Virus record (IMG/VR): IMGVR_UViG_3300029787_000439
Span: 1-20,022 of that record
Length of the DNA: 20,022 nt
Reading direction: 5' to 3' (one strand)
DNA from: a virus
The notes beneath the pieces were generated by a model. The model searched no databases, had not been told where the DNA came from, and saw only the letters and a list, made by a program, of their open reading frames with translations. The translations under genes were made by a program, and so were the position numbers. Shown in pieces: positions 7,312-18,247 of this stretch (its first letter is position 1; every line of letters starts with the position of its first letter).

Positions 7312-8094
7312 TTAATTATCTCTTTTGGGAAATATATTAGTAAACAAGTTTGACGCACCTCCACTAATACTCGATAATAAATTACCAAAATTAGTGCCAC
7401 CACCTAATGTATCTCTATATTCTGATCTAGACATTGTACCTCCTTCATCCCTATATTGTCCAAAACTTACTCCCGCAAACGGATCATTTGGATCACCTTG
7501 ATTTAAATACTCAGGTATTTGTTGACCAGCTATAGCTCCCATACTTGCAATACCTTGCATTGCTTGACTTTGGTAAGCAGCTCTGTTTTGAGCGGCTTGT
7601 TGAGCTGCCGCTTGTTGTCCTTCTACTTCTTTAACATCTAATCCTACCCTTAAGTTTTGTAGTCTTGATTCTTCCTGGGCCGCTGCTTTTTCTAAATCTG
7701 AAAGCTCTCTACCCATGGCTGCTCTTGTTTGAGCTTGTTGCGCTTGATTAAGAGCTGCGGCTCTACCCGCAGTAACTCCAGCGCCTCTTTGCTCTCCCTC
7801 TTGACCAGCTTGGACAATTTGTCCTAAGCCAGATAATGCGGCTTCTCTTTCTAGTTCATAAGGTTCTTTTTGAATAGACAAACCTTTCATATAATTTACC
7901 TCTAATTTTTCTCTTGCTTGTTCTAAAGCTTTGCTTGCTGCATCTTCAGCTTTTTGTTGTGCTTTTTTTTGCTTGGACGCGTTAGATAAACTTACTGCCG
8001 TGCCTGCAGTTGAGGCTGCAAAAGCAGCTCCCGCAGCTATAGTGCCTGCCTTAATTGTAGCTCCCGCTATTGCTGTTCCTGTTATTATTGCCAT
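7312..8094 (-). CDS. Small Ala/Gly-rich internal virion protein, T7 gp14 / P22 gp7-like
   Basis: 260 residues of very biased composition. Residues 3-36 are an Ala/Gly/Thr/Ile stretch that could insert in a membrane. Residues about 40-175 are Ala/Gln/Glu-rich and almost certainly helical, with runs such as AAAQQAAQNRAAYQSQAMQG. A second short hydrophobic patch (GIASMGAIAG, 181-190) precedes a Gly/Ser-rich tail. This pattern is typical of the small ejection proteins of short-tailed phages (T7 gp14, 196 residues, outer-membrane pore; P22 gp7). The start ATG lies one base after the stop of the GNAT-like gene (TAATATG), so translation by reinitiation is likely, and the 589-residue gene follows after 10 bases. 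Function is inferred from composition and position. Confidence 0.85.
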   Translation of the reverse strand: MAIITGTAIAGATIKAGTIAAGAAFAASTAGTAVSLSNASKQKKAQQKAEDAASKALEQAREKLEVNYMKGLSIQKEPYELEREAALSGLGQIVQAGQEGEQRGAGVTAGRAAALNQAQQAQTRAAMGRELSDLEKAAAQEESRLQNLRVGLDVKEVEGQQAAAQQAAQNRAAYQSQAMQGIASMGAIAGQQIPEYLNQGDPNDPFAGVSFGQYRDEGGTMSRSEYRDTLGGGTNFGNLLSSISGGASNLFTNIFPKRDN

Positions 8095-8095
8095 A

Positions 8096-8506
8096 TTAAA
8101 ACGATTTAATCATTTCTTGTGTGTATGTATCGCCCTTAATATAACCCAGCTTCTCGTATGTTTTAACAAGACCATCGTGTTTTATAAGGGCATAGGTGTA
8201 TTTATTTCCGTTGTTTTTACAAGTATTAGTGAGGGCCTCTACCAGCATTTGCACAGCTTTGTGCTTTCTTTTTTTCTTTGTGTATTTTTTATTTGATATT
8301 ATCCAGTCCACCCAGGCTACTTTTGAATTTGTTATATATATAAACCCTGCGCATACAGGGACGTCGTTGTCTAATACTAGCAAACCACCTTCTCCATCAT
8401 CTGGCAAAAATTCTTTTGCCGGAGGCTCCCATCCCCAGTCCTCCCACCAACCAACAAGTATATCCTTGTAATCAGTAGAATTAAGTTTACGTATATTAAA
8501 CTTCAT
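8096..8506 (-). CDS. GNAT-fold protein, T7 gp13-position analogue
   Basis: 136 residues with the outline of a GCN5-related N-acetyltransferase. The C-terminal motif is clear (residues 111-122, DGLVKTYEKLGY, followed by a beta-strand ending TQEMIKSF). The acetyl-CoA pyrophosphate loop region (about 74-86, KYTKKKRKHKAVQ) is basic and lacks a clean Q/R-x-x-G-x-G/A, so catalytic activity is doubtful. The N-terminal WWEDWGWEPP motif and the central NSKVAWVDWIIS occur, from memory, in many marine phage 'acetyltransferases'. T7 gp13 is 138 residues, also has a GNAT-like fold, and precedes genes 14-16 exactly as here. I infer a role in building the internal core or in maturing the virion, though modification of a host or phage protein remains possible. 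The gene has its own predicted promoter 7 bases upstream of the ATG. Confidence 0.88.
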   Translation of the reverse strand: MKFNIRKLNSTDYKDILVGWWEDWGWEPPAKEFLPDDGEGGLLVLDNDVPVCAGFIYITNSKVAWVDWIISNKKYTKKKRKHKAVQMLVEALTNTCKNNGNKYTYALIKHDGLVKTYEKLGYIKGDTYTQEMIKSF

Positions 8507-8513
8507 ACACTAA

Positions 8514-8521
8514 CAAAGATA
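8514..8521 (-). promoter_or_regulatory. Bacteroidota-type promoter -7 box (TATCTTTG) for the GNAT-like gene
   Basis: The minus strand reads TATCTTTG, an exact match to TAnnTTTG, then TTAGTGT and the ATG. Transcription would begin within a few bases of the start codon, giving an almost leaderless mRNA. I find no convincing -33 TTG at 17-23 bases upstream. It would drive the 13-16-like block separately from the tail genes. Confidence 0.45.
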
Positions 8522-8528
8522 CTAATTT

Positions 8529-9350
8529 TTATGGATAGCTTTTCATTATCTGAGACTCTACCGCAAAGAGCTCTGCTCTATTGGGACCTATATTTTCTAA
8601 AGTCATTAAAGCATAGTGTCCAAGGATCCCATGAGATTCAGCAATTGAATTTTTTAAAGCCATCATTAACGGAGTGTTTGTAGTAGGATTAGTAGCTCCC
8701 GCTATTGTGCTGTCCACAGTTATAGAGCTTGTGGCAATGGTAGTAATAACCCCTGCTAAAGCAGGTGAATTAGTAAACTCATTTAAATAATAAAGATAAT
8801 CCCCAATACTAATTATTGAATCAATAGGAACTACAAAAGAAAAAACTCTAGGGTTAGTCATTGTAAACCCTGTGGTACTTCCGATTCCATTTACAGATCT
8901 AAAATCAAAATCAGCTAATGTTGATGGAGTCTGAGAAGTGTTTTTAATAGCGGCATAATAAGCGCCCTCTTTCAGCTCAAACCATGTGTTGTTTATAAAG
9001 GCTTCATTATTCATGTCTGTGTTCAGACTTATATTCCACGGAGCATCCGCTTCTAAACCAATGGTTTTAAATAATTTATTGTTAAGCGGCGAGTCGTTAA
9101 TTACAGTAGTTATTGTACTGTTATGTTGAGTTCCATAAAAATTATTACGCAGTAAATTAGTATTGTGCCTATAAAGATTGCCACCTGAAAAAGTATAAAA
9201 ATAGTTATTCATCCCTACCATATAGTCAGGGTTGTATGAATAAAAAGAAGGCCAACCGTTTACACCGTTGCTGTATGTGAGCGTATATAGCTCACCATCA
9301 GGCACTTGAGGTGTTGCAATTGGATTCGGTGATGAAGGGATTGATGCCAA
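8529..9350 (-). CDS. Conserved marine-phage structural protein of unknown role
   Basis: 273 residues starting at a TTG (minus-strand codon at 9348-9350). An in-frame TAA lies five codons upstream and the next ATG is only at about residue 44, inside conserved-looking sequence, so the TTG is the best start. The N-terminus is Pro/Ser-rich (IPSSPNPIATPQ). A recognisable block follows (LTYSNGVNGWPSFYSYNP, then DYMVGMNNYFYTFSGGNLYR), and the C-terminus has SIAESHGILGHYALMTLEN and ends ESQIMKSYP. From memory this combination recurs in uncultured marine phage genomes beside tail or head genes, usually unnamed. It looks beta-rich and soluble, with no signal peptide. Its place between glycosyltransferase and internal-protein genes, with its own predicted promoter, suggests a virion surface component. 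Function not established. Confidence 0.82.
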   Translation of the reverse strand: MASIPSSPNPIATPQVPDGELYTLTYSNGVNGWPSFYSYNPDYMVGMNNYFYTFSGGNLYRHNTNLLRNNFYGTQHNSTITTVINDSPLNNKLFKTIGLEADAPWNISLNTDMNNEAFINNTWFELKEGAYYAAIKNTSQTPSTLADFDFRSVNGIGSTTGFTMTNPRVFSFVVPIDSIISIGDYLYYLNEFTNSPALAGVITTIATSSITVDSTIAGATNPTTNTPLMMALKNSIAESHGILGHYALMTLENIGPNRAELFAVESQIMKSYP

Positions 9351-9355
9351 AGTAA

Positions 9356-9372
9356 TTGTATTTTAAATACAA
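9356..9372. promoter_or_regulatory. 17-bp palindrome at a predicted transcription start
   Basis: TTGTATTT (9356-9363) and AAATACAA (9365-9372) are perfect inverted copies around one central base. The palindrome begins within the 3' end of the -7 box at 9370-9377 and covers the expected start of transcription of the 273-residue gene. The arms are too close to form a hairpin, so a dimeric DNA-binding protein site is a better guess. It may be chance in AT-rich DNA. Confidence 0.3.
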
Positions 9373-9401
9373 ATATACAAAAATTTAATCCTGCTATGCA
9401 A
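9370..9401 (-). promoter_or_regulatory. Bacteroidota-type promoter (TTG-N21-TATATTTG) for the 273-residue gene
   Basis: On the minus strand TTG (9401-9399) is followed after 21 bases by TATATTTG (9377-9370), which fits TTG-N17-23-TAnnTTTG as described for Flavobacterium. The -33 element overlaps the stop region of the preceding gene. The leader to the TTG start codon would be about a dozen bases. Confidence 0.5.
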
Positions 9402-9918
9402 CGGGCGTAGCCGTAGGAGTAGGAGTAGGTGGCACTGGTGTGGGTGTTGGTGTAAGCGTAGGAACAAAAGTCGGTGTAGGTGTAGGAGTTATTTGTGTTC
9501 CGCCTATACATATTTGTGCTGACCCTTTTGTTCTTCCCTCTGGGTCATCAATTACAAGTTCAAATGTCAATATGGTGTAGTCCCCACTAAGCATTGGTGT
9601 TACTGGGTTAGAAGGAAAATATACTTGGCTTGGACCAAAGCTATAAGCAGGCACCATTATCGAAGAAGGATAGAATCTAGTATACTCGTTTCCTAAAGCG
9701 TCTAATATTACTCCAATCCCATAGACTTTCCCTGAACCACTTAACCAATTAGTCCTAATAAACGGAGATAATCCTGCGGTTAAAGTTAGGTTGTTAGCAA
9801 GAGTTATAATTTCTCTATTGGCTACATTATATCTAACTCCATCTATTCCTAAGTATTGGGTAATGGTTGGAGCAGAAGTCCCCGTTCTTACTTCAGCAGT
9901 ACATGTAATGAAACTCAT
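9394..9918 (-). CDS. Small beta-rich protein with a C-terminal Thr-Pro tail
   Basis: 174 residues. Residues 1-143 look like one beta-rich domain (e.g. YGIGVILDALGNEYTRFYPS, GDYTILTFELVIDDPEGRTK) with two Cys. Residues 144-174 are a low-complexity tail in which 24 of 31 residues are Thr or Pro, mostly TPTP units, ending TATPVA. Such tails are extended, linker-like and classic O-glycosylation or hydroxyproline substrates. The gene is 30 bases downstream of a glycosyltransferase of the hydroxyproline GlcNAc-transferase type, so it is a candidate acceptor (inference). It has no signal peptide or membrane segment. A virion decoration or fibre-like protein is likely from its position among structural genes. 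I do not recognise the folded domain. The start ATG is 9916-9918, directly after a predicted -7 box. Confidence 0.82.
   Translation of the reverse strand: MSFITCTAEVRTGTSAPTITQYLGIDGVRYNVANREIITLANNLTLTAGLSPFIRTNWLSGSGKVYGIGVILDALGNEYTRFYPSSIMVPAYSFGPSQVYFPSNPVTPMLSGDYTILTFELVIDDPEGRTKGSAQICIGGTQITPTPTPTFVPTLTPTPTPVPPTPTPTATPVA
9397..9489. repeat. Low-complexity Thr-Pro codon repeat
   Basis: These 93 bases encode the 31-residue Thr/Pro tail. On the plus strand they read as degenerate GGTGTA/GGAGTA hexamers. The array is imperfect, so length change by slippage is possible but the codons are already diverged. The plus strand is unusually G-rich compared with the AT-rich surroundings. Confidence 0.75.
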
Positions 9919-9923
9919 AAATA

Positions 9924-9931
9924 CAAATTTA
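9924..9931 (-). promoter_or_regulatory. Promoter -7 box (TAAATTTG) for the Thr-Pro protein
   Basis: The minus strand reads TAAATTTG, then TATTT, then the ATG. The expected transcription start falls on or next to the start codon, so the mRNA could be leaderless. No good TTG is visible 17-23 bases further upstream. Confidence 0.45.
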
Positions 9932-9948
9932 CAATTTTTTTGCTTTGT

Positions 9949-11172
9949 TTATTTAACAGCCCCTGTTATTTGATTCGTCCATCCCTTAGCAGCACTATAA
10001 GGCCACACTATATAATTTTTTGGGTACTGTCCCATGAATTCACTTTCTATTATAATTTCTTTTAATCCCTTCCAATGTTTTATTTGGTCAGGGAGAATAT
10101 CTTTTCTATACAGCTGCGTTTTGTTTTCGTCTTCAAAAATAACCGCTACAAAAGTATAGTCATCTTCTTTTAGTTGCTTGCTAGATATAGTTATTTTGTA
10201 TCTAAAAATTTTATGATAAACTTCTGTTCTAAACATAGGAGGCTTGTTGTCAAGAGTAGACTGTTGTACTGTTCTTTGTTTAAAATTAATACCAGCAAAA
10301 TCTTGATACCATGATAATGACTTCATAGGCCCTAAGTCATAACCCTTCATTGCACGTTTAGCACAAGGAGTACATTTTTGGTCGTCTATTTTTAATAATG
10401 TTTTTACTCGTGTCTTAGAAGATTGATCTAACTTATCCCACTCGAGGTTGTCTTGCCAGTGTTTAGTTCTACCCTCCCTAGTGTATTCATGCCATGCTAT
10501 AATTTTATTTGGATGAAACAGCTCATACCCCCATGTGTAAGCTCTGACGGCAATACTAATTTCTTCTCCGTGAAAATAAAGTAAAGGATCATGCGGTACT
10601 TCTCTGCAAAAAGCACCTATGGTAAAAGCGAAGTGACCCGAATAAAACCTAGTTGGTATTGGTTGTTTGGTGTTTTTCTTTATATAGTAAGGTAAAAATA
10701 AAGCAATGCCATCTGGTGTAAATCTGTCAAAGGACATACCCCAAGGAGTTTTTGTTCTGTGTTTTGGATCATTTTTAGGATCGTATGACGGCAAGTAACT
10801 GGTGATTAAAGGTCTAGCAACACCTTTAGATCTCAATCTAAAAAACATATCACAACATTTAACGTCCCAGTTTTTTACAAATCGGTGATGGGAATCAAGT
10901 TGTAAAGTAAAATGCTGATTATTGTAATGACGCTGTATCTGATTTCTTGCCCAACATGTGCCCCTAGATTCAGTGTGTGGTATTTCTATTACAATAAAAC
11001 GAGCATCGTTTTTAAACTCTTCAAGAGAATCCCATTTATCAGATTCTGAATATTGATGGGCTATACAAATGGTTAACTCCTCTGGATATTTGGCGTTTTT
11101 TATTAAACTCCGTAGTGTTGGAATTAACTCTGGATCCCGATAGCTAGCTATCTGAACAAATATAGAATACAT
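9949..11172 (-). CDS. Glycosyltransferase of the hydroxyproline GlcNAc-transferase type (PF11397-like)
   Basis: 407 residues. The N-terminus IFVQIASYRDPEL (residues 4-16) is the typical opening of the GlcNAc family (Skp1-type GnT1). SRGTCWARN (69-77) and LQLDSHHRF...NWD (90-103) follow; D93-S94-H95 stands where the family has its metal/nucleotide-sugar D-x-D-like motif. Next come YSGHFAF (177-183), EVPHDP (191-196), HGEEISIAVRAYTWGYE (201-217), W227-H228-E229-Y230, and DLGPMKSLSWYQDFAG, matching the family's closing segment. Residues about 310-407 form an extra beta-rich domain that may bind the acceptor. The expected reaction is transfer of GlcNAc or a similar sugar from a UDP-sugar to a protein Hyp, Thr or Ser. 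The enzyme is cytoplasmic, with no signal peptide or membrane helix. Its neighbour 30 bases downstream encodes a Thr-Pro tail. The gene has its own promoter overlapping a palindrome. Confidence 0.9.
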   Translation of the reverse strand: MYSIFVQIASYRDPELIPTLRSLIKNAKYPEELTICIAHQYSESDKWDSLEEFKNDARFIVIEIPHTESRGTCWARNQIQRHYNNQHFTLQLDSHHRFVKNWDVKCCDMFFRLRSKGVARPLITSYLPSYDPKNDPKHRTKTPWGMSFDRFTPDGIALFLPYYIKKNTKQPIPTRFYSGHFAFTIGAFCREVPHDPLLYFHGEEISIAVRAYTWGYELFHPNKIIAWHEYTREGRTKHWQDNLEWDKLDQSSKTRVKTLLKIDDQKCTPCAKRAMKGYDLGPMKSLSWYQDFAGINFKQRTVQQSTLDNKPPMFRTEVYHKIFRYKITISSKQLKEDDYTFVAVIFEDENKTQLYRKDILPDQIKHWKGLKEIIIESEFMGQYPKNYIVWPYSAAKGWTNQITGAVK

Positions 11173-11175
11173 TAG

Positions 11176-11196
11176 ATTTGATTTTATAAATCAAAT
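11176..11196. promoter_or_regulatory. 21-bp palindrome between promoter and glycosyltransferase start
   Basis: ATTTGATTT (11176-11184) and AAATCAAAT (11188-11196) are perfect 9-bp inverted copies around three bases. On the minus strand the left arm overlaps the last bases of the -7 box, and the right arm ends three bases before the ATG. It could be a repressor site covering the transcription start or a hairpin at the 5' end of the mRNA. There is no T-run, so it is not a terminator. Confidence 0.4.
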
Positions 11197-11199
11197 ATA
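11192..11199 (-). promoter_or_regulatory. Promoter -7 box (TATATTTG) for the glycosyltransferase gene
   Basis: TATATTTG on the minus strand matches TAnnTTTG exactly and lies in the 34-base gap after the 439-residue gene. No convincing -33 TTG is seen. The leader would be about 10-15 bases and would contain the palindrome's second half. Confidence 0.45.
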
Positions 11200-11206
11200 A
11201 TAAATA

Positions 11207-12526
11207 TTAACTAAGATAGCTGAAGCCTCCCCCAAAACCTCCAGAAACTGTACATGCTTGACAATCATCCCCTACATATGTCGTAATTTGTACAGGAGGG
11301 CTTGTGCTAGAACTATATTGATTTGGCGTTGTAGTTGTTTCGTACAATTCCCAGCATATTGCTTCTACAGAATCTCTATAAACAGACCCCGCTCCACCAT
11401 TATTAAATATAGGATCGTTAGTAGGTTGCACGGACACTCTGTCACCGTTTAATATTTGTGCTTCAGGATCACAAGCTCGCAATACCCAATATGTTCCTGG
11501 GCAACCTACTGCTCCTATTGTAAATCCTGGTTGACCTTTGGCTACACCGTTTTGATCTACTTCGAGCACATTAAATAATTCAGCTTTTCCTGATAATTGA
11601 GAGGAATTAAGCTCTTGCTCTATAATATAAATAGTTGATCCGCTATCATTTGTAACTCGTGTGCCAGGTAAAAATATTGTTGTTGTTGATTTAAAATAAT
11701 AATCAGTGGTATTATCACTACATTTTCTTAACTCGTATATGTTTTCATTTACAACATTAAAAGAAGGACATCCTGTTTCGCCTGCTAAAACGCTTAACGA
11801 AAGACCTCGACCTGCGGAGCTTTCTAATTGATCTTGAGCAGGAACTGTGCTTTGAGGTGATGTCGCTTGATCATAAACAAAATACTCTACTGGGTTAGTG
11901 TTAGATGTCACAAACCTTTGATTAGTAGCAGGACCAGCGCCTGAAACTCTTTCTATCCATCCCCCTGCAGGAACGCTTCCATTAGAGTTAGCACAACCAT
12001 TTAACTTATAAAAAAGAGTTGGCACAGTAACTCCCGTTGGTATGGGTTCTATGGATCCAGTTAAAGTGTTCGTTACTGTAGTTCCTCCTGAATCAGGTGG
12101 AATTAATCCGTCAGGATTTGTTGCAGTAAAAGGGGCTGTGCTTGAAAACTGAAAGCCTGCTAAAGCTTGAGCAAATATTTCAAAATCATATGGAGACTGT
12201 GCAGGGCCTGTTTGTGTTACTGGTCCTGGAGCTCCACTACCATCGTATCCAGATCCTGAAAGAGAATAATTAACCCCTAAAGTCCCTACAATATTATTAG
12301 TTACATTCTGTGTTACGCTATATAAAGTAGCCGTTGTTGGGGGTGGCGAAGCACAATTATCACAAGTAGTTTGAGCTTGTAAAAGACCATTTAATTGTTG
12401 TCTAGAAATAGCAGTATTAGAATAAAAGCCATCAGCAGCTAACGTAGTTAGGCCAATGTCAGTATATATAGAAGTTGCTTCTTCTAATGTTAATGCGTCC
12501 ATGTAATAAAGTGCTTCTGTTGCCAT
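11207..12526 (-). CDS. Cys-patterned tail appendage-like protein
   Basis: 439 residues. Residues 1-58 form a small module (MATEALYYMDALTLEEATSI... to CDNC at 55-58) of a kind I recall fused to tail proteins of marine Bacteroidota phages. A Pro/Thr/Ser/Gly-rich beta section follows. Three loosely repeated units share an aromatic-x-L-x-x-C core: FYKLNGC (172-178), YELRKC (264-269) and YWVLRAC (346-352). Further Cys are at CWELYE (391) and DCQAC (421-425), and the tail is Gly-rich, ending GGFGGGFSYLS. The composition suits an extended, beta-rich fibre or spike component. The ATG (12524-12526) is 11 bases after the stop of the long stabilisation gene, and the gap has no TAnnTTTG motif, so it is probably co-transcribed with the tail genes. 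The exact role (receptor binding or adaptor) is unknown. Confidence 0.82.
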   Translation of the reverse strand: MATEALYYMDALTLEEATSIYTDIGLTTLAADGFYSNTAISRQQLNGLLQAQTTCDNCASPPPTTATLYSVTQNVTNNIVGTLGVNYSLSGSGYDGSGAPGPVTQTGPAQSPYDFEIFAQALAGFQFSSTAPFTATNPDGLIPPDSGGTTVTNTLTGSIEPIPTGVTVPTLFYKLNGCANSNGSVPAGGWIERVSGAGPATNQRFVTSNTNPVEYFVYDQATSPQSTVPAQDQLESSAGRGLSLSVLAGETGCPSFNVVNENIYELRKCSDNTTDYYFKSTTTIFLPGTRVTNDSGSTIYIIEQELNSSQLSGKAELFNVLEVDQNGVAKGQPGFTIGAVGCPGTYWVLRACDPEAQILNGDRVSVQPTNDPIFNNGGAGSVYRDSVEAICWELYETTTTPNQYSSSTSPPVQITTYVGDDCQACTVSGGFGGGFSYLS

Positions 12527-12537
12527 ATTTTTTTATA

Positions 12538-15500
12538 TTAAGTTGGACATCCTATTTTTATATGCCACGCTGTAGTTGGAAGCGGGCCATATACTTTTAT
12601 TGTACAGGTTGTGGTTGCTGTTGTTTTTTGAAAAGTAAAAGTATGCCAAGTGTTATTGGTTGTAACTCCATTTATTTCCGTGACATATCCACCATTAGAA
12701 ACTCTAGGTAAAGGCGCTGTTCCATTAGGCTCATAAGCTTGACCTGTAAACGCACCGTTATTAGGCTCGACGTAATAAGTTCCTGTGTCTGGATCTATAC
12801 CTTGTAGTGTTGCTAATAATCCCTGAGGCCCTTTATACCAATCGCTACCCACGCCTATACCCATATATCGTGTGTCTATTACTACCGCTCCGTCAAACTC
12901 TACTATAAGTCTATCAGGTAGGGCCTCAGCTAAAAACTCTACTGATACTGTACCAGTACCTGACCCTAAAGTATATGTTTGAGCATCAGGATAGTTGTTT
13001 CCTCCAGAATAGCTAGCAGCGCTACCACATGGTGTCGTCGGTAAAACAGGAACACATCCACAGCAAGCATTGTATGCTGTTGTATTTATACACAAAGTAG
13101 CTGCTGTTATTTTTCTGTAATCCCAAATCAAATACAGATTATCATCAGCTGTAGTCATTGTTGGCATAGTAAAGGTTGCATAATTAGTGTCCCCACTATT
13201 TATAATCGGTGTGGCTTCAGCGGAAGCAGTAACTAACGCGTTCATGTCGGTAACATTATTACTATAAACAGTAGAACTTCTTAAATAACGTAATTTATTA
13301 GAACCTTGATCAAATAAATAAGTGTCTGTAGGAAATTTATTACTTATTATACTAACAATAGCTCCTTCGTCTGGAACGGTGTTGGAGCCTAAAGCTCCTG
13401 TGAGGGTTTCATACTGAGATATAATTGTTCCACTACCTGTTTCAAATTGAACTAAATTAGTTTGAGTGGGTGAGGAAAATACATTATCTGTCCATCTATA
13501 TTCATTATGAATTGTTTTACCTGCATCTGTATTACTTGTCAAAGCAATATTGTAAACAGTAATTAAGTTTTCTACCGGACAACTAACTGTAACTTCCGCA
13601 GAATCAGAAACTAGACCTGAAGTTGAAGCTTCAATAGTAACCTCTGATTCATCAATGTTATTTTTTGGAATAGTGAAACTTCCACTCACAAAGACTAAAC
13701 CACTAGTATATTTAACACCATTATAATATGCGTTAAAGGTATACCCAACTCCTGTGTTTGTGTCTTGAGTTACAATCGGAGAGACTCCAGCTTCTGTTTC
13801 CATTTCTTCAAGCCCTCCAGCAGGTGTGTTTACCTCTGTAATTATATCATCATCTGAAGCATTTGGAATTATATAAGATACTGTAACCTGACCAACAGCT
13901 TGACCCACGTCTACGCAATAAATATTTCTTTTACCTGGTTCAATTACAAGGTTTTCTGATACGTCACAAGCAAGACATAAAACAAAATCAAATGTGTTTT
14001 GTAAATTTTTAGCCAATACAAACTCATTCATATAAGGATCGTAACCGCCAAGCTTTTGAGTACCTAAGGAATCAATAAAGAAATCTCTAAACCATCCACG
14101 CATTCCTCGTTCAGAAATAACAGTAAGCTCTTCAGCGCCACCAGACCCGCCTCGTAATCTTATAACTGCACCTCTTTTTGCGTCTACAAAATATTTATCA
14201 AAGCCCCATACCGCAAAACTTTCAGGATTATTACTTATACCATACTCTTCGTCTCTAGCAATTTGCACACCTAACACCTGAGGTACACTTGTAAGGGCTC
14301 CTCCTCCAGTAGCATCTGTTAATAAGTCTTTTCCTACAGGCACATAAGATATTTTATCTTCTTGTATTGTAAGAATATCGGTACGTCTAGCGTATAGTTT
14401 TCTAATTGGACCAAAAGAATCTTCTAATGGACTAAAGTTTAGTAAACCTAAATTAAATTCGTTAAGTTTATTTACATTACTTTCATCATTAAATACACCG
14501 CTATAAGTTAAATCAGAAAATCTATGAGCTTCTTTATATATCTGAGAAGATGTGGTTGTTGTTCTATTACCAAAATTCATAGGCCTTCCTGTAATAGAGT
14601 CTCTTATTTTATAACTTTCTATGCCGTTTCCAAAAGCAATACAGTTTGAAAAACCTGTGTCTATAATTGCATCTTGGGCAGTTACTACTCCAGAGTTATC
14701 AAAATCAACTATTTGGCTTTGAGAGCTTCCAGTGTGTTGACCAAATGCATCTATGGGAAAAGATAAATCGTTTTCATACCAAACATCAGGTAACGCATCT
14801 AAAGGTTGTGTTTCAAAAACTATATTAATGCTTGCTCTTATTACTTCTATATTAACCTCTATACCTGTAGTTCTACTGCCATTACAATTTCGGTCACCTG
14901 TAATTCCTAAAAAAGTTTCTCCTGTTGCGCTTCCTCCTGAGTCGCTTTTAAAAAATTGAAAGAAAAATTTAGCGTTTGCTTGTGAAGGAAGATCAGAATT
15001 ATTTGGCGTAGCTGTAGATATACTTTGTAAACTAGAATCATAAGAAATAATACCATTAAAATCCCCATCATTATCACCACAAATAAAAGTTGAATTAGTT
15101 TGAATTAGACCAGTCGATGCCGTACCCAAGCCTTCATTATCAAAAAACTCTTTAAAATTAGTATAATTAGCTTTTGCAATAATAGTTTGATCATACCTCC
15201 AAGTTCTTCTTTCACAATCAGCACCACAGTTTTTTCTACCATTTCTTACACCTTGTATGGTAATTCTAACTTGACTAGCAGCGGGTATATCGTAATCGAT
15301 AAATTGACTAGTTCCCGTACCCCCTGGATTTTTAACACTTACTGGGTAAAATAATTTTGGATAATGGTTTCGATCTCCAGCTGTACGAGAAAGATTCCCA
15401 TAACTTATAAAACTATCTAAATTATCCCCTGATTCAACAGCGAAATTATTAGGTATCATTTTCATATACGTTCCTGCTGGAGCTTTTACTTTGTCTCCAG

Positions 15501-17148
15501 TTGGATCTAATGGATTGGTAAACTCTATAAATCCTAACGCCATGTTCTCTTTTTCTAAAACAACAGCAGTAGTACACTTTCTTCTAACTCCTGCAGCGTC
15601 GCTCTTCACAATTAAACGATCTCCTGCTTCTACCTTGTTTGCGTTTTCTCCTTCTAAAAGAAAATAAACACCATTAGAATTATCGCCACGAACAAAAGAT
15701 GAAACAAAAATAGTTTCGTAAGTAGTTTTATCTGGCTTTATACAAAACTTGTATCTCGTTGCCCAATAAGGCGCAATTTGTGCTGATGGCCCACCAGCTT
15801 GACCACCAGGGATATTAACCGTAATACTATTAGCTGTACCAGAGTCGCCACACGATGTAGAAACAGTATTAAAAGGACTTACTAAAGCGGTAGATGATCT
15901 GTTAAAATCATCCATATATATTATTCCTATTTCATACCCTCGATTACTATGTAAGCTATAATTATCGTTAGAACTTATAAACGATCCAGAAATACTTGTT
16001 ACTGAAAAATACTCATAGGATTCATTTGCCCCATCAATCCATTTCATGGCTAACAATTGAAGAACTATATCGTCCGAATTTGGTTGAGATAAAATTGTTA
16101 AACCTTGAGGAGAAGTGGTGACACCACTTGCACTTTTAGTAAAGGTGCTTAAATTGGTAGGTATTTCACAATTAAAAGCATCCGTAAATGTAAATCCATT
16201 ACACGAGTTAGGTACTGTTTGTACGTTTGAGGCTGTTCCTATTGCAGAAATAAAATCAGGGTCTTGAGTCAAAGCATAAACTGTAGAATAATCTCTTAAC
16301 AGCTCATAGCTAAAACTAACAGTTGTAACCCCAGTTGCAGAAGTGGGAGCTGTTCCAACGGCTGCATAAAAAGAATTGTGAACAAAAGATAAATCCCATG
16401 TAATTTGATTGCCTCTTTTTAAAGTTTTCCCTGTTAGATTTAAAGCAAAGGTTGAGTTGGGTATGCTTACTGATGAGCCAAAAGTATAGTTTGAGGTGGT
16501 TCCAATAGTGTCCGTAAGCTCAGATTCTTCAATTTCGGCAGATAGTAAAGTAGTTTGATAACTAAAATTTACAGCGTTATTAAATCTGTCTTTTAAATTA
16601 TAACCTTCAAAATAATTTCCGTAAACTAATCTGTTACCCATTAAAGTTTGTGCTTGTGCTTTTAATGGTACATTGTCGTAAAGCCTAAGTATTTCGTTTT
16701 CAGGAAGAACTGTAAATATTTTTTGATTTTCAAAATTAAATAAAAAGGTGTTGTTGTCTCCTAAACCCAATACGGCTTTGTCAAATCGCTCTATAATTTT
16801 AATAGTGGGGTCAGACATATCTTTAAACAAAAGCTCTATGTCTGTAACTAAAGGACCCCCAGTGTTAAAACTAATGTCAACCGCATTAATAGAGTTGACC
16901 ATTCCTTCATTTAGAAAACTAGTGGGTGTAAATTGAAAAGGTCCCGCTCTAAAAGCAGGATTACTAAATTGTGATACTGCAGAAAACTCTCCGTTTTGAT
17001 ATTGGTATCTGTAAGCAAAGCAAATAAACCTGTCTTCTAAAAAAGTACCCCCATTAGGAATTGTTTTTAAAACAATAGTAGGCGCTGCTAAAGGTGGTTT
17101 TTTTATAACCAAAATACTTTCTGCACTAAATTGATCTCTATACGACAT
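12538..17148 (-). CDS. DNA-stabilisation / tail 'muzzle' protein, C-terminal part, with adhesion modules
   Basis: 1536 residues. It starts with a segment I recognise from the interior of crAss-like stabilisation proteins: VIKKPPLAAPTI (14-25), FLEDRFICFAYRYQYQNGEF (36-55) and NRLVYGNYFEGYNL (172-185). Further conserved segments follow: NPESFAVWGFDKYFVDAKRG (about 975-1000) and GGYDPYMNEFVLAKN (about 1035-1050). Residues 815-826 match a canonical EF-hand calcium loop (D-x-D-N-S-G-x5-D). After about 1060 the protein changes to Ig-like and adhesion-like modules and a Cys-rich linker (ACCGC). A C-terminal jelly-roll-like domain (SYSGGNNYPDAQTYTLGSGT to the end) resembles carbohydrate-binding modules of phage tail proteins. 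In other phages the stabilisation protein seems to be one chain; here its N-terminal part is the upstream gene, one base away (TAATATG). Likely role: distal short tail that seals DNA and contacts the cell surface. Confidence 0.88.
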   Translation of the reverse strand: MSYRDQFSAESILVIKKPPLAAPTIVLKTIPNGGTFLEDRFICFAYRYQYQNGEFSAVSQFSNPAFRAGPFQFTPTSFLNEGMVNSINAVDISFNTGGPLVTDIELLFKDMSDPTIKIIERFDKAVLGLGDNNTFLFNFENQKIFTVLPENEILRLYDNVPLKAQAQTLMGNRLVYGNYFEGYNLKDRFNNAVNFSYQTTLLSAEIEESELTDTIGTTSNYTFGSSVSIPNSTFALNLTGKTLKRGNQITWDLSFVHNSFYAAVGTAPTSATGVTTVSFSYELLRDYSTVYALTQDPDFISAIGTASNVQTVPNSCNGFTFTDAFNCEIPTNLSTFTKSASGVTTSPQGLTILSQPNSDDIVLQLLAMKWIDGANESYEYFSVTSISGSFISSNDNYSLHSNRGYEIGIIYMDDFNRSSTALVSPFNTVSTSCGDSGTANSITVNIPGGQAGGPSAQIAPYWATRYKFCIKPDKTTYETIFVSSFVRGDNSNGVYFLLEGENANKVEAGDRLIVKSDAAGVRRKCTTAVVLEKENMALGFIEFTNPLDPTGDKVKAPAGTYMKMIPNNFAVESGDNLDSFISYGNLSRTAGDRNHYPKLFYPVSVKNPGGTGTSQFIDYDIPAASQVRITIQGVRNGRKNCGADCERRTWRYDQTIIAKANYTNFKEFFDNEGLGTASTGLIQTNSTFICGDNDGDFNGIISYDSSLQSISTATPNNSDLPSQANAKFFFQFFKSDSGGSATGETFLGITGDRNCNGSRTTGIEVNIEVIRASINIVFETQPLDALPDVWYENDLSFPIDAFGQHTGSSQSQIVDFDNSGVVTAQDAIIDTGFSNCIAFGNGIESYKIRDSITGRPMNFGNRTTTTSSQIYKEAHRFSDLTYSGVFNDESNVNKLNEFNLGLLNFSPLEDSFGPIRKLYARRTDILTIQEDKISYVPVGKDLLTDATGGGALTSVPQVLGVQIARDEEYGISNNPESFAVWGFDKYFVDAKRGAVIRLRGGSGGAEELTVISERGMRGWFRDFFIDSLGTQKLGGYDPYMNEFVLAKNLQNTFDFVLCLACDVSENLVIEPGKRNIYCVDVGQAVGQVTVSYIIPNASDDDIITEVNTPAGGLEEMETEAGVSPIVTQDTNTGVGYTFNAYYNGVKYTSGLVFVSGSFTIPKNNIDESEVTIEASTSGLVSDSAEVTVSCPVENLITVYNIALTSNTDAGKTIHNEYRWTDNVFSSPTQTNLVQFETGSGTIISQYETLTGALGSNTVPDEGAIVSIISNKFPTDTYLFDQGSNKLRYLRSSTVYSNNVTDMNALVTASAEATPIINSGDTNYATFTMPTMTTADDNLYLIWDYRKITAATLCINTTAYNACCGCVPVLPTTPCGSAASYSGGNNYPDAQTYTLGSGTGTVSVEFLAEALPDRLIVEFDGAVVIDTRYMGIGVGSDWYKGPQGLLATLQGIDPDTGTYYVEPNNGAFTGQAYEPNGTAPLPRVSNGGYVTEINGVTTNNTWHTFTFQKTTATTTCTIKVYGPLPTTAWHIKIGCPT

Positions 17149-17149
17149 A

Positions 17150-18247
17150 TTAAATAGTTAAAGTATAAGTTACACCATCTACTAATTTTAAACCACTGAG
17201 CTGTAAAGATCCTAGAGCCTCTGGATTATAAACATTTAAGTTTTCATCTATGTAAGACAAAATGCCAACCGCATAAGAACAAGAAAAAATTCCACTTGAT
17301 CCGTCACTACCTGTAATATTACCCGATATAATTCCTGTTCCAGGATTAGAAGTTCCAGAAGATAATATTAATCCCATTAATCCCGTTCCATCTGGAAATT
17401 GGGTAAACATTGTAAAAGCTAAACCACTTGCGTCATTAGCTCCTTGTATTCCATAACCCCGTGTAAAAGGAAAAGTATTAACAACAGGAGCGCCTTGAAG
17501 AAAAGCTACAGACCCATATGTGTAACAGCCCGTTCCTGGTAAATCTATCTGGGTGGTTGTTGGTGCGACCCCAACCCCTATACCATTCACTGGTGTTGGG
17601 CACCCTAATAAAGTTCCTCGATGAAAACCTATTACTCCTCCTGAAGAATCCACATAAGCTCCAGCAGTAAAAACAAAAGCTGTTGTCTGATTTGGATTAG
17701 TAATAATTGAAGTTGATTCAATAGGCTCTGCATAAGCATTTTTTATATTTATAAATCTTGGAGGGTTTAAAAAATCAGTAAAAAATAATAAATCGCCTAC
17801 CTTGTCGGTGCCTGTAATTAAAAACTGTGGGTTAAAATTTAATGTAGTGTTTTCTCCTGTACCATCATCAATGCTTACAATATGATAAATAAGTTGTCCC
17901 GTTAGTACATTAAGGGAAACTATCATGTCTAATTTACCTGTATTGCCTAGAGGAAAATTAGGGTCGTGAACAAACCAATATAATGTTTCGTTAGCACCAT
18001 CTTCATACACACCTATAGTTCTTGCTTCGCTACTTAAAGGGGTATTTGTTGAAGTAATAGGGTCAATAAAATAAAGCTCTGTTAATCTTGAATTACCCTT
18101 GGCATTTTCTACGGACCCAACCTCCGACTCTTCGGTTGAACCAAGCCTTACGTTTAACGCATCAACATACTCGCCGTTAGGTAGCAGCCTTTCGTCAAGG
18201 CTTTTATTCATTCGCCCTAATACAAAATTTCTTTGCGTTTTTGCCAT
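17150..18247 (-). CDS. DNA-stabilisation / tail 'muzzle' protein, N-terminal part, with extra domain
   Basis: 365 residues. The start (NFVLGRMNKSLDERLLPNGE, 7-26; then YVDALNVRLGSTEESEVGSV, 27-46) is the characteristic N-terminus of stabilisation or muzzle proteins of Bacteroidota podoviruses. LLFFTDFLNPPRFINIKNAY (153-172) is the next conserved strand group. In single-chain relatives, as I recall them, this is followed almost directly by the VIKKPPLAAPTI segment that opens the next gene. Here residues about 178-360 form an additional Gly/Thr/Pro-rich beta domain, and the protein stops. The two genes are in different frames with one base between stop and start, and the junction has no classic slippery heptamer. 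Either the gene has truly split at a domain insertion or an indel breaks one ORF. The start ATG is 18245-18247, one base after the previous stop (TAAAATG). Confidence 0.85.
   Translation of the reverse strand: MAKTQRNFVLGRMNKSLDERLLPNGEYVDALNVRLGSTEESEVGSVENAKGNSRLTELYFIDPITSTNTPLSSEARTIGVYEDGANETLYWFVHDPNFPLGNTGKLDMIVSLNVLTGQLIYHIVSIDDGTGENTTLNFNPQFLITGTDKVGDLLFFTDFLNPPRFINIKNAYAEPIESTSIITNPNQTTAFVFTAGAYVDSSGGVIGFHRGTLLGCPTPVNGIGVGVAPTTTQIDLPGTGCYTYGSVAFLQGAPVVNTFPFTRGYGIQGANDASGLAFTMFTQFPDGTGLMGLILSSGTSNPGTGIISGNITGSDGSSGIFSCSYAVGILSYIDENLNVYNPEALGSLQLSGLKLVDGVTYTLTI

Follow-up and report, generated by a model that had tools for sequence, protein, structure and literature searches.

Next to a putative glycosyltransferase (GT) gene, an uncultured marine virus carries a gene whose product ends in a run of threonine and proline, and this raises the question whether the enzyme glycosylates its neighbour and, if so, on which residue. 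We addressed this question in IMG/VR virus record IMGVR_UViG_3300029787_000439, presented as a single strand from position 1 to 20,022 (the window). Both open reading frames (ORFs), which lie on the minus strand, were recovered 30 bases apart where a first-pass annotation, made from the letters of the DNA, had placed them: a GT60-like (PF11397) glycosyltransferase of 407 residues (9949..11172), and the proposed acceptor, a protein of 174 residues (9394..9918) composed of a beta-rich domain (residues 1-141) and a Thr/Pro tail. The last 31 residues of this tail (9397..9489), the proposed O-glycosylation region, indeed hold 24 Thr and Pro, namely 12 of each, a number that none of 100,000 shuffled versions of the sequence attained. 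Our analysis makes it probable that threonines in a linker of the virion undergo mucin-type O-glycosylation by a PF11397/GT60 enzyme that the phage encodes. The earlier observation is confirmed, and it applies more widely than the sequence alone could reveal.

The earlier assignment of the enzyme to the PF11397 type proved correct, as a profile search gave a match of 5.5e-73 (246.9 bits, the curated cut-off being 21) and a Pfam scan of the protein returned PF11397 alone; it also matched phrog_24687, a 'glycosyltransferase' family, at 7.4e-163. For its AlphaFold2 model (pLDDT 94.4, pTM 0.90), structural re-alignment with one match per entry ranked 29 polypeptide N-acetylgalactosamine (GalNAc)-transferases first, with Z-scores of 20.0-23.4, root-mean-square deviations of 3.3-4.7 and 260-294 aligned residues, the next match having a Z-score of 17.5, and the top 41 matches of a Foldseek search were also polypeptide GalNAc-transferases. 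A profile search of the sequences of solved structures with the GT returned nothing at E <= 0.01, and because a sequence match to family GT27 is thus absent, the enzyme was kept out of that family: judged by its model, its fold resembles that of a GalNAc-transferase, yet it is classed as PF11397/GT60. Residues D93, S94, H95 and H228 are invariant in all 38 aligned relatives and E203 is kept in 37 of the 38. The spacing of D93, H95 and H228 (0/+2/+135) is identical to that of the Mn2+ ligands of GalNAc-T2, given as Asp224, His226 and His359 in the cited part of PMC4432651.

The tail itself is, on alignment, better seen as half of the split linker of a two-part muzzle-associated protein, because the 174-residue protein and the product of the next gene, a crAss_MUZ_C protein of 273 residues (8529..9350), align to consecutive parts (positions 11-167 and 181-460) of a single 460-residue family, phrog_38031. 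Among 38 GT-bearing contigs spanning both muzzle genes, the two parts are separate in 10 and joined into one protein in 20, with a linker that is Thr/Pro-rich in these fused homologues; in the remaining 8, the N-terminal part is absent or unlike the 174-residue protein. The N-terminal part is a separate gene in 11 contigs, two of which (L097 and L135) either lack the second part or have it truncated where the contig ends. Within the split clade the tail is nearly identical in all 10 aligned sequences while its codons are scrambled, and the ratio of nonsynonymous to synonymous polymorphism (pN/pS) is 0.055 in the tail versus 0.314 in the domain, pS being 0.71 in both. The retention of residues despite scrambled codons reflects purifying selection on the Thr/Pro pattern and not repeat slippage. 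For the 174-residue protein no match was found among named phages, no Pfam family was assigned, and a fold search gave no significant match (best E-value 4e-3; TM-score to the query at most 0.36 among the matches listed). A place in the virion, as in the earlier label of virion protein, is suggested by its homology and its fusion.

If the enzyme acts on this tract, both should be found together, as the first-pass annotation had proposed to check, and this was borne out. We tabulated 102 contigs of the muzzle clade covering both muzzle genes, a set that includes two named phages and leaves out the window itself, and counted a tract, for which at least six threonines were required, when it lay in MUZ_C or in a gene of the slot between the muzzle genes. 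GT and tract occurred together in 36 contigs and were both missing from 61, while 3 had the tract only (L063, L080, L137) and 2 the GT only; 97 of the 102 are therefore concordant. After clustering at 95% MUZ_C identity these four classes numbered 22/39/1/1 of 63 (p = 1e-14), and at 80% identity 12/21/1/1 of 35 (p = 2e-7). One of the two GT-only contigs, L149, has a linker that falls short of six threonines. In L101 the N-terminal domain is present, and GT and tract are both absent.

The association extends beyond the clade. A scan for relatives with the single GT as query yielded 2 loci, and with an alignment as query at least 591 viral stretches, the best 80 of which were taken; three were already in our set, leaving 77 new GT loci, and the 60 of these without a BLAST hit to the muzzle genes are here called outside the clade. 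As random set we used 80 viral loci matching an arbitrary 14-mer (from at least 80 such loci), which are shorter (median 8.9 versus 20 kb). A Pro-Thr tract was present in the flanks of 21 of the 60 GT loci versus 1 of the 80 random loci (p = 3e-8), and the contig of this sole random locus (L577) itself carries PF11397. The difference was also seen per megabase (p = 1.6e-4), after length matching (7/24 GT loci of at most 16.5 kb versus 0/31 random loci of at least 10 kb) and with one vote per cluster of GTs at 70% identity (14/24 versus 1/80). After Pro-Thr, the commonest low-complexity tracts near the GT were Thr-only (16 of 60) and Ser-Thr (7 of 60), versus one each in the random set, while no enrichment was found for Gly-Thr (0/0), Asn-Thr (0/0), Gly-Pro (1/2) and Ala-Pro (3/1). 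Whole contigs were searched for 50 of the 60 loci, with omission of 3 near-duplicates, 3 short contigs and 4 with tracts already found, and TPTPTP-type DNA was present in 22 of the 50 versus 2 of 40 contigs from the random set (p = 2.5e-5); the reversed DNA pattern was present in 2 of the 50. In the reverse test, PF11397 exceeded its cut-off in 10 of 50 contigs with a Thr/Pro tract (from 80 loci, selected for a coding tract and a contig of at least 15 kb), in none of 29 Ala/Pro contigs (from 80 loci; one match stayed under the cut-off) and in 2 of 40 random contigs (from 80, at least 15 kb), with p = 0.004 against the pooled controls. The enzyme is thus associated with the tract, though most Thr/Pro contigs are without the enzyme and many enzyme loci without the tract. 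Among bacterial PF11397 loci a Pro-Thr tract occurred in 15 of 80, but Ala-Arg (25), Gly-Arg (14) and other tracts were as common, and no claim is made for bacteria. In several phages and one bacterium, a carbamoyltransferase gene adjoins the PF11397 gene (L180, L182, L183, L185, L249, L168 at 24792-28509 and L148 at 9997-12251), hinting at further sugar decoration or another acceptor.

What the analysis establishes is the family of the enzyme, the order of the genes, the homology of the fused proteins, the co-occurrence, the selection acting on the tail, the fold as predicted and the invariance of residues at the metal site. The link between enzyme and acceptor has good statistical and structural support. 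Several points weigh against it nevertheless. To date no glycan has been observed on the 174-residue protein, and the donor sugar is not readable from the sequence. Within the clade the association partly reflects shared ancestry, and L162 (11372-12598), with a GT, a short MUZ_C and no Thr/Pro tract, is the single clear exception. Outside the clade, 39 of the 60 GT loci have no tract in their flanks and 28 of the 50 GT contigs no TPTPTP-type match at all, Ser-Pro (5 versus 0) and Gly-Ser (4 versus 0) tracts, too, are more frequent around the GT than in the shorter random loci, and the carbamoyltransferase beside the GT in the tract-less L180, L182, L183 and L185 makes other acceptors possible there. 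Conversely, PF11397 is absent from 40 of the 50 Thr/Pro contigs, its enrichment against the random contigs alone reaching p = 0.059, and Thr/Pro linkers are also found in non-glycosylated proteins. The target of the GT could instead be a glycan on the host surface, a different protein of the virion or a small molecule, with the tract serving as a mere flexible linker, for which the frequency of GT genes without a nearby tract can be advanced, as well as the ability of phage glycosyltransferases to act on DNA or cell-surface glycans. We consider this unlikely: of the tract types around the GT, Pro-Thr stands out most and several others are not enriched, even if Ser-Thr, Ser-Pro and Gly-Ser are so to some extent, the modelled fold is that of a polypeptide transferase, the position of the GT within the tail-tip operon is fixed, and enzyme and tract are jointly absent in L101. 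Far less probable still, and disfavoured, is a tract that spread by slippage as a low-complexity repeat, its association with the GT being a bias of lineage or composition. The tracts are repetitive, with many copies in several GT-bearing records, but their codons are scrambled and their residues kept, DNA of the reversed pattern hardly occurs, and the association recurs outside the clade and per GT cluster.

Concerning the modified residue, the hydroxyproline acceptor to which the first-pass annotation had pointed finds no support in this clade. The prolyl-hydroxylase domain PF13640 was found in none of 27 GT-bearing clade contigs (all fragments, the longest 58.6 kb, and some near-identical), and the Trypanosoma cruzi branch of GT60 uses threonine according to the cited parts of PMC3769586 and PMC6939170. 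Prolyl 4-hydroxylase (P4H) was not enriched among Thr/Pro contigs either (4/50 versus 4/40 random). The kind of hydroxylase that the annotation had proposed to look for turned up in cassettes of a sister group, where a P4H-like gene occupies the same slot between the muzzle genes (identified by Pfam in L080, L145, L148 and L149, and by homology in L063 and L137). The L148 cassette (7702-12796) combines P4H with an O-fucosyltransferase (PF10250), a carbamoyltransferase, PF11397 and a weakly PhyH-like protein, and the near-identical L149 (11093-16241) has the same set, the PF11397 genes of both being distant ones. In L080 (5001-8964) P4H is accompanied by three proteins, namely a GDP-mannose-dehydratase-like epimerase, one without assignment and one that is hydroxyproline-arabinosyltransferase-like (HPAT-like; PF23452, 1.3e-5), and the cassette of L145 extends over 7879-13095. 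Among solved structures, prolyl 4-hydroxylases match the P4H of L080 at 8e-26, and the H-x-D...H...K pattern is kept in all five slot P4Hs looked at. The threonine share of the linker, T/(T+P), is 0.47 beside GT60 alone (n=29) versus 0.30 beside P4H cassettes (n=6, two of which also have PF11397; p = 7e-4), many of these sequences being related. Threonine-richer linkers and absence of P4H beside GT60 alone point to threonine as the acceptor where P4H is absent, and threonine would be the simpler acceptor in the GT clade.

Two further arrangements were observed around P4H-like genes. In L058 (3-2754), P4H and an HPAT-like gene, 38% identical to that of L080 and itself without a Pfam match, immediately follow the gene of a protein that has long repeats of Val-Pro but few threonines, an arrangement that might be the proline-only equivalent of the Thr/Pro system; the near-identical L057 and L059 have the same P4H/HPAT-like arrangement, the Val-Pro protein being seen in L058. 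In Aquimarina genomes (L306 at 9905-11465, L308, L309, L312, L315) and a Bacteroidia metagenome-assembled genome (L310), a 2-oxoglutarate (2OG)-Fe(II) oxygenase-like gene lies directly behind the PF11397 gene, a pairing that resembles that of the Skp1 hydroxylase and Gnt1; PF13640 was confirmed in both oxygenases tested (L306 and L312).

On this basis one could argue that the prolines of the tail are hydroxylated by the host or by an unseen phage enzyme and that the GT attaches N-acetylglucosamine (GlcNAc) to the hydroxyproline, in the way Gnt1 modifies Skp1. Gnt1 shares CAZy family GT60 (PMC6939170, in the part cited), P4H-like genes fill the slot in related phages, with PF11397 in the same cassette in L148 and L149, the well-matched P4H of L080 sits with an HPAT-like gene, and the Aquimarina pairs bring PF13640 and PF11397 side by side. 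We nevertheless hold this to be quite unlikely for the present clade, given that PF13640 was absent from the 27 GT-bearing contigs searched (all fragments), that P4H is not enriched with Thr/Pro tracts, that linkers beside GT60 alone are richer in threonine than those beside P4H cassettes, and that L058, with P4H and an HPAT-like gene, bears Val-Pro repeats instead of Thr/Pro.

Under the preferred reading, glycosylation of threonine, the phage would make a cytoplasmic, metal-dependent GT-A glycosyltransferase (PF11397/GT60) late in infection, beside its substrate. UDP-N-acetylhexosamine (UDP-HexNAc) would be bound through the DSH/H228 metal site, and the HexNAc, most likely GlcNAc from host UDP-GlcNAc, would be moved onto many threonines of the disordered Thr/Pro tract before or during virion assembly. 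A nucleotide-sugar gene was not found among the 9 proteins of the sequence scanned, from which it follows that the donor would have to be supplied by the host or by another part of the genome; to call the system self-contained, as was done earlier, is therefore too strong. The product may be a stalk or free tail at the tail tip (muzzle) that is stiff and, like a mucin, coated with sugar, with a possible role in linker spacing or protease resistance, in shielding, or in adsorption. In the split clade, the modified tail would end a separate 174-residue protein.

Known systems resemble this proposal in part. In the cited part of PMC6939170, GT60 holds both the Skp1 hydroxyproline enzyme Gnt1 and the threonine enzyme of T. 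cruzi. The latter, pp-alpha-GlcNAcT, is described in PMC3769586, as far as the cited part goes, as an Mn2+-dependent enzyme that transfers GlcNAc onto Thr, assayed on a peptide whose Thr run is flanked by Lys-Pro-Pro. It shares GT60 with the phage enzyme but is eukaryotic and microsomal and modifies a surface mucin, whereas the phage acceptor is a proposed cytoplasmic phage protein. Gnt1 is cytosolic in activity and differs in requiring hydroxyproline made by PhyA (PMC6939170, same part), PF13640 being unmatched in 27 contigs of the phage clade. The animal and Toxoplasma GalNAc-transferases (GT27) provide the nearest solved folds with equal metal-ligand spacing, and the best peptide of a snail GalNAc-transferase places Thr between prolines (PMC6994419, in the part cited); they differ in lacking a sequence-level match, in a ricin-type lectin domain that is not demonstrated in the phage GT, and in using UDP-GalNAc as donor. 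For mycobacteriophages, phage-encoded GTs have been suggested to modify the capsid (PMC11256854, in the part cited). Phage 2OG oxygenases resemble human EGLN3, with no link to glycosylation in the cited passages (PMC12774648). Our literature search found no paper joining phage and PF11397, nor one by title on phage hydroxyproline linkers, from which we do not claim that such work is unpublished.

The named-phage relatives of the GT comprise three records, the jumbo phages Xanthomonas XacN1 (ORF334, 40.7% identical) and Stenotrophomonas CM1 and RAS14, with identities of 36-41%. TPTPT-type DNA matches on both strands number 85 in XacN1 and 36 in RAS14, versus 4 and 3 for the reversed pattern, and XacN1 ORF325 (3,313 residues, beside baseplate genes) holds a Thr/Pro tract. 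Proteomics of XacN1 revealed at least two glycoproteins, for which the authors suggest the phage's own two transferases to be responsible (PMC5852040, in the part cited). XacN1 thus resembles the present system in its GT, its tracts and its reported glycoproteins; it differs in being an unrelated myovirus with a second GT. Five adjoining XacN1 genes, ORF232-236 (L686, 42049-49501), all have TPTPT-type matches and form a candidate Thr/Pro-linked protein family.

The GT belongs to a tail-tip operon on the minus strand, consisting of two crAss-like muzzle genes, the genes of a 439-residue protein, the GT, the 174-residue protein and the 273-residue crAss_MUZ_C protein, and a weakly GNAT-like gene. 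Neighbouring genes match crAss-like muzzle families (PF25729 at 2.4e-15, PF25731 at 8.7e-8 and phrog_14478 at 6.9e-176), the MUZ_C protein matching crAss_MUZ_C at 2.4e-15, while an NCBIfam search of 7 proteins assigned no family. The muzzle protein, a single family in phrog_14478, is here encoded by two adjacent genes at 12538-18247: the N-terminal part (crAss_MUZ; 17150..18247, phrog_14478 positions 3-154), which ends with about 190 extra residues, and the muzzle-like virion structural protein (12538..17148, positions 159-1367). Of the 439-residue protein (11207..12526), the first approximately 60 residues are found again in many relatives, and homologues in some of these, e.g. L172, contain Thr/Pro tracts. 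Named relatives of the 273-residue protein (122 records) consist of an uncultured podovirus from Manatee Spring and of phages infecting Flavobacterium, Cellulophaga, Tenacibaculum and Maribacter, so that the host is probably a flavobacterium; in Cellulophaga phage phi18:3 the homologue has a structural annotation based on tandem mass spectrometry. The MUZ_C gene starts with TTG, a start that is supported by an ATG at the equivalent place in L012 and L014. A TAnnTTTG motif, which we take to be promoter-like, lies directly upstream of the Thr/Pro-tailed gene (9924..9931), the MUZ_C gene (9370..9377) and the GT gene (11192..11199), all on the minus strand, and recurs in 7/7, 8/8 and 6/7 (not L014) of the split-clade relatives printed; the split pair therefore seems separately promoted. 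Expression of the pair as one product was considered as well. An alternative genetic code with read-through of TAG would not join the pair, as the 174-residue ORF ends in TAG with a TAA three codons on, and a programmed frameshift is disfavoured, since the MUZ_C gene has a start of its own and, in all 8 relatives printed, a promoter-like motif.

Linker composition co-varies with the type of enzyme, and the pairing of GT60 with Thr/Pro is found in Bacteroidota phages, gammaproteobacterial jumbo phages and other uncultured viruses. There is in our judgement an even chance that tailed phages build mucin- or extensin-like virion linkers with exchangeable modification cassettes beside the acceptor gene. 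GT60 alone would serve for threonines in Thr-Pro repeats, and Pro-rich or Val-Pro repeats would receive hydroxyproline-linked glycans from P4H combined with enzymes of the O-fucosyl, arabinosyl, carbamoyl or GT60 type. If this holds, a GT60 enzyme with a Thr/Pro tract would be a sequence signature that predicts glycosylated phage proteins, and the approximate site, in many uncultured viruses. It would add a prokaryotic, cytoplasmic, two-gene form to mucin-type O-glycosylation, and the P4H/HPAT-like cassettes would suggest a bacterial-virus form of plant-like hydroxyproline glycosylation.

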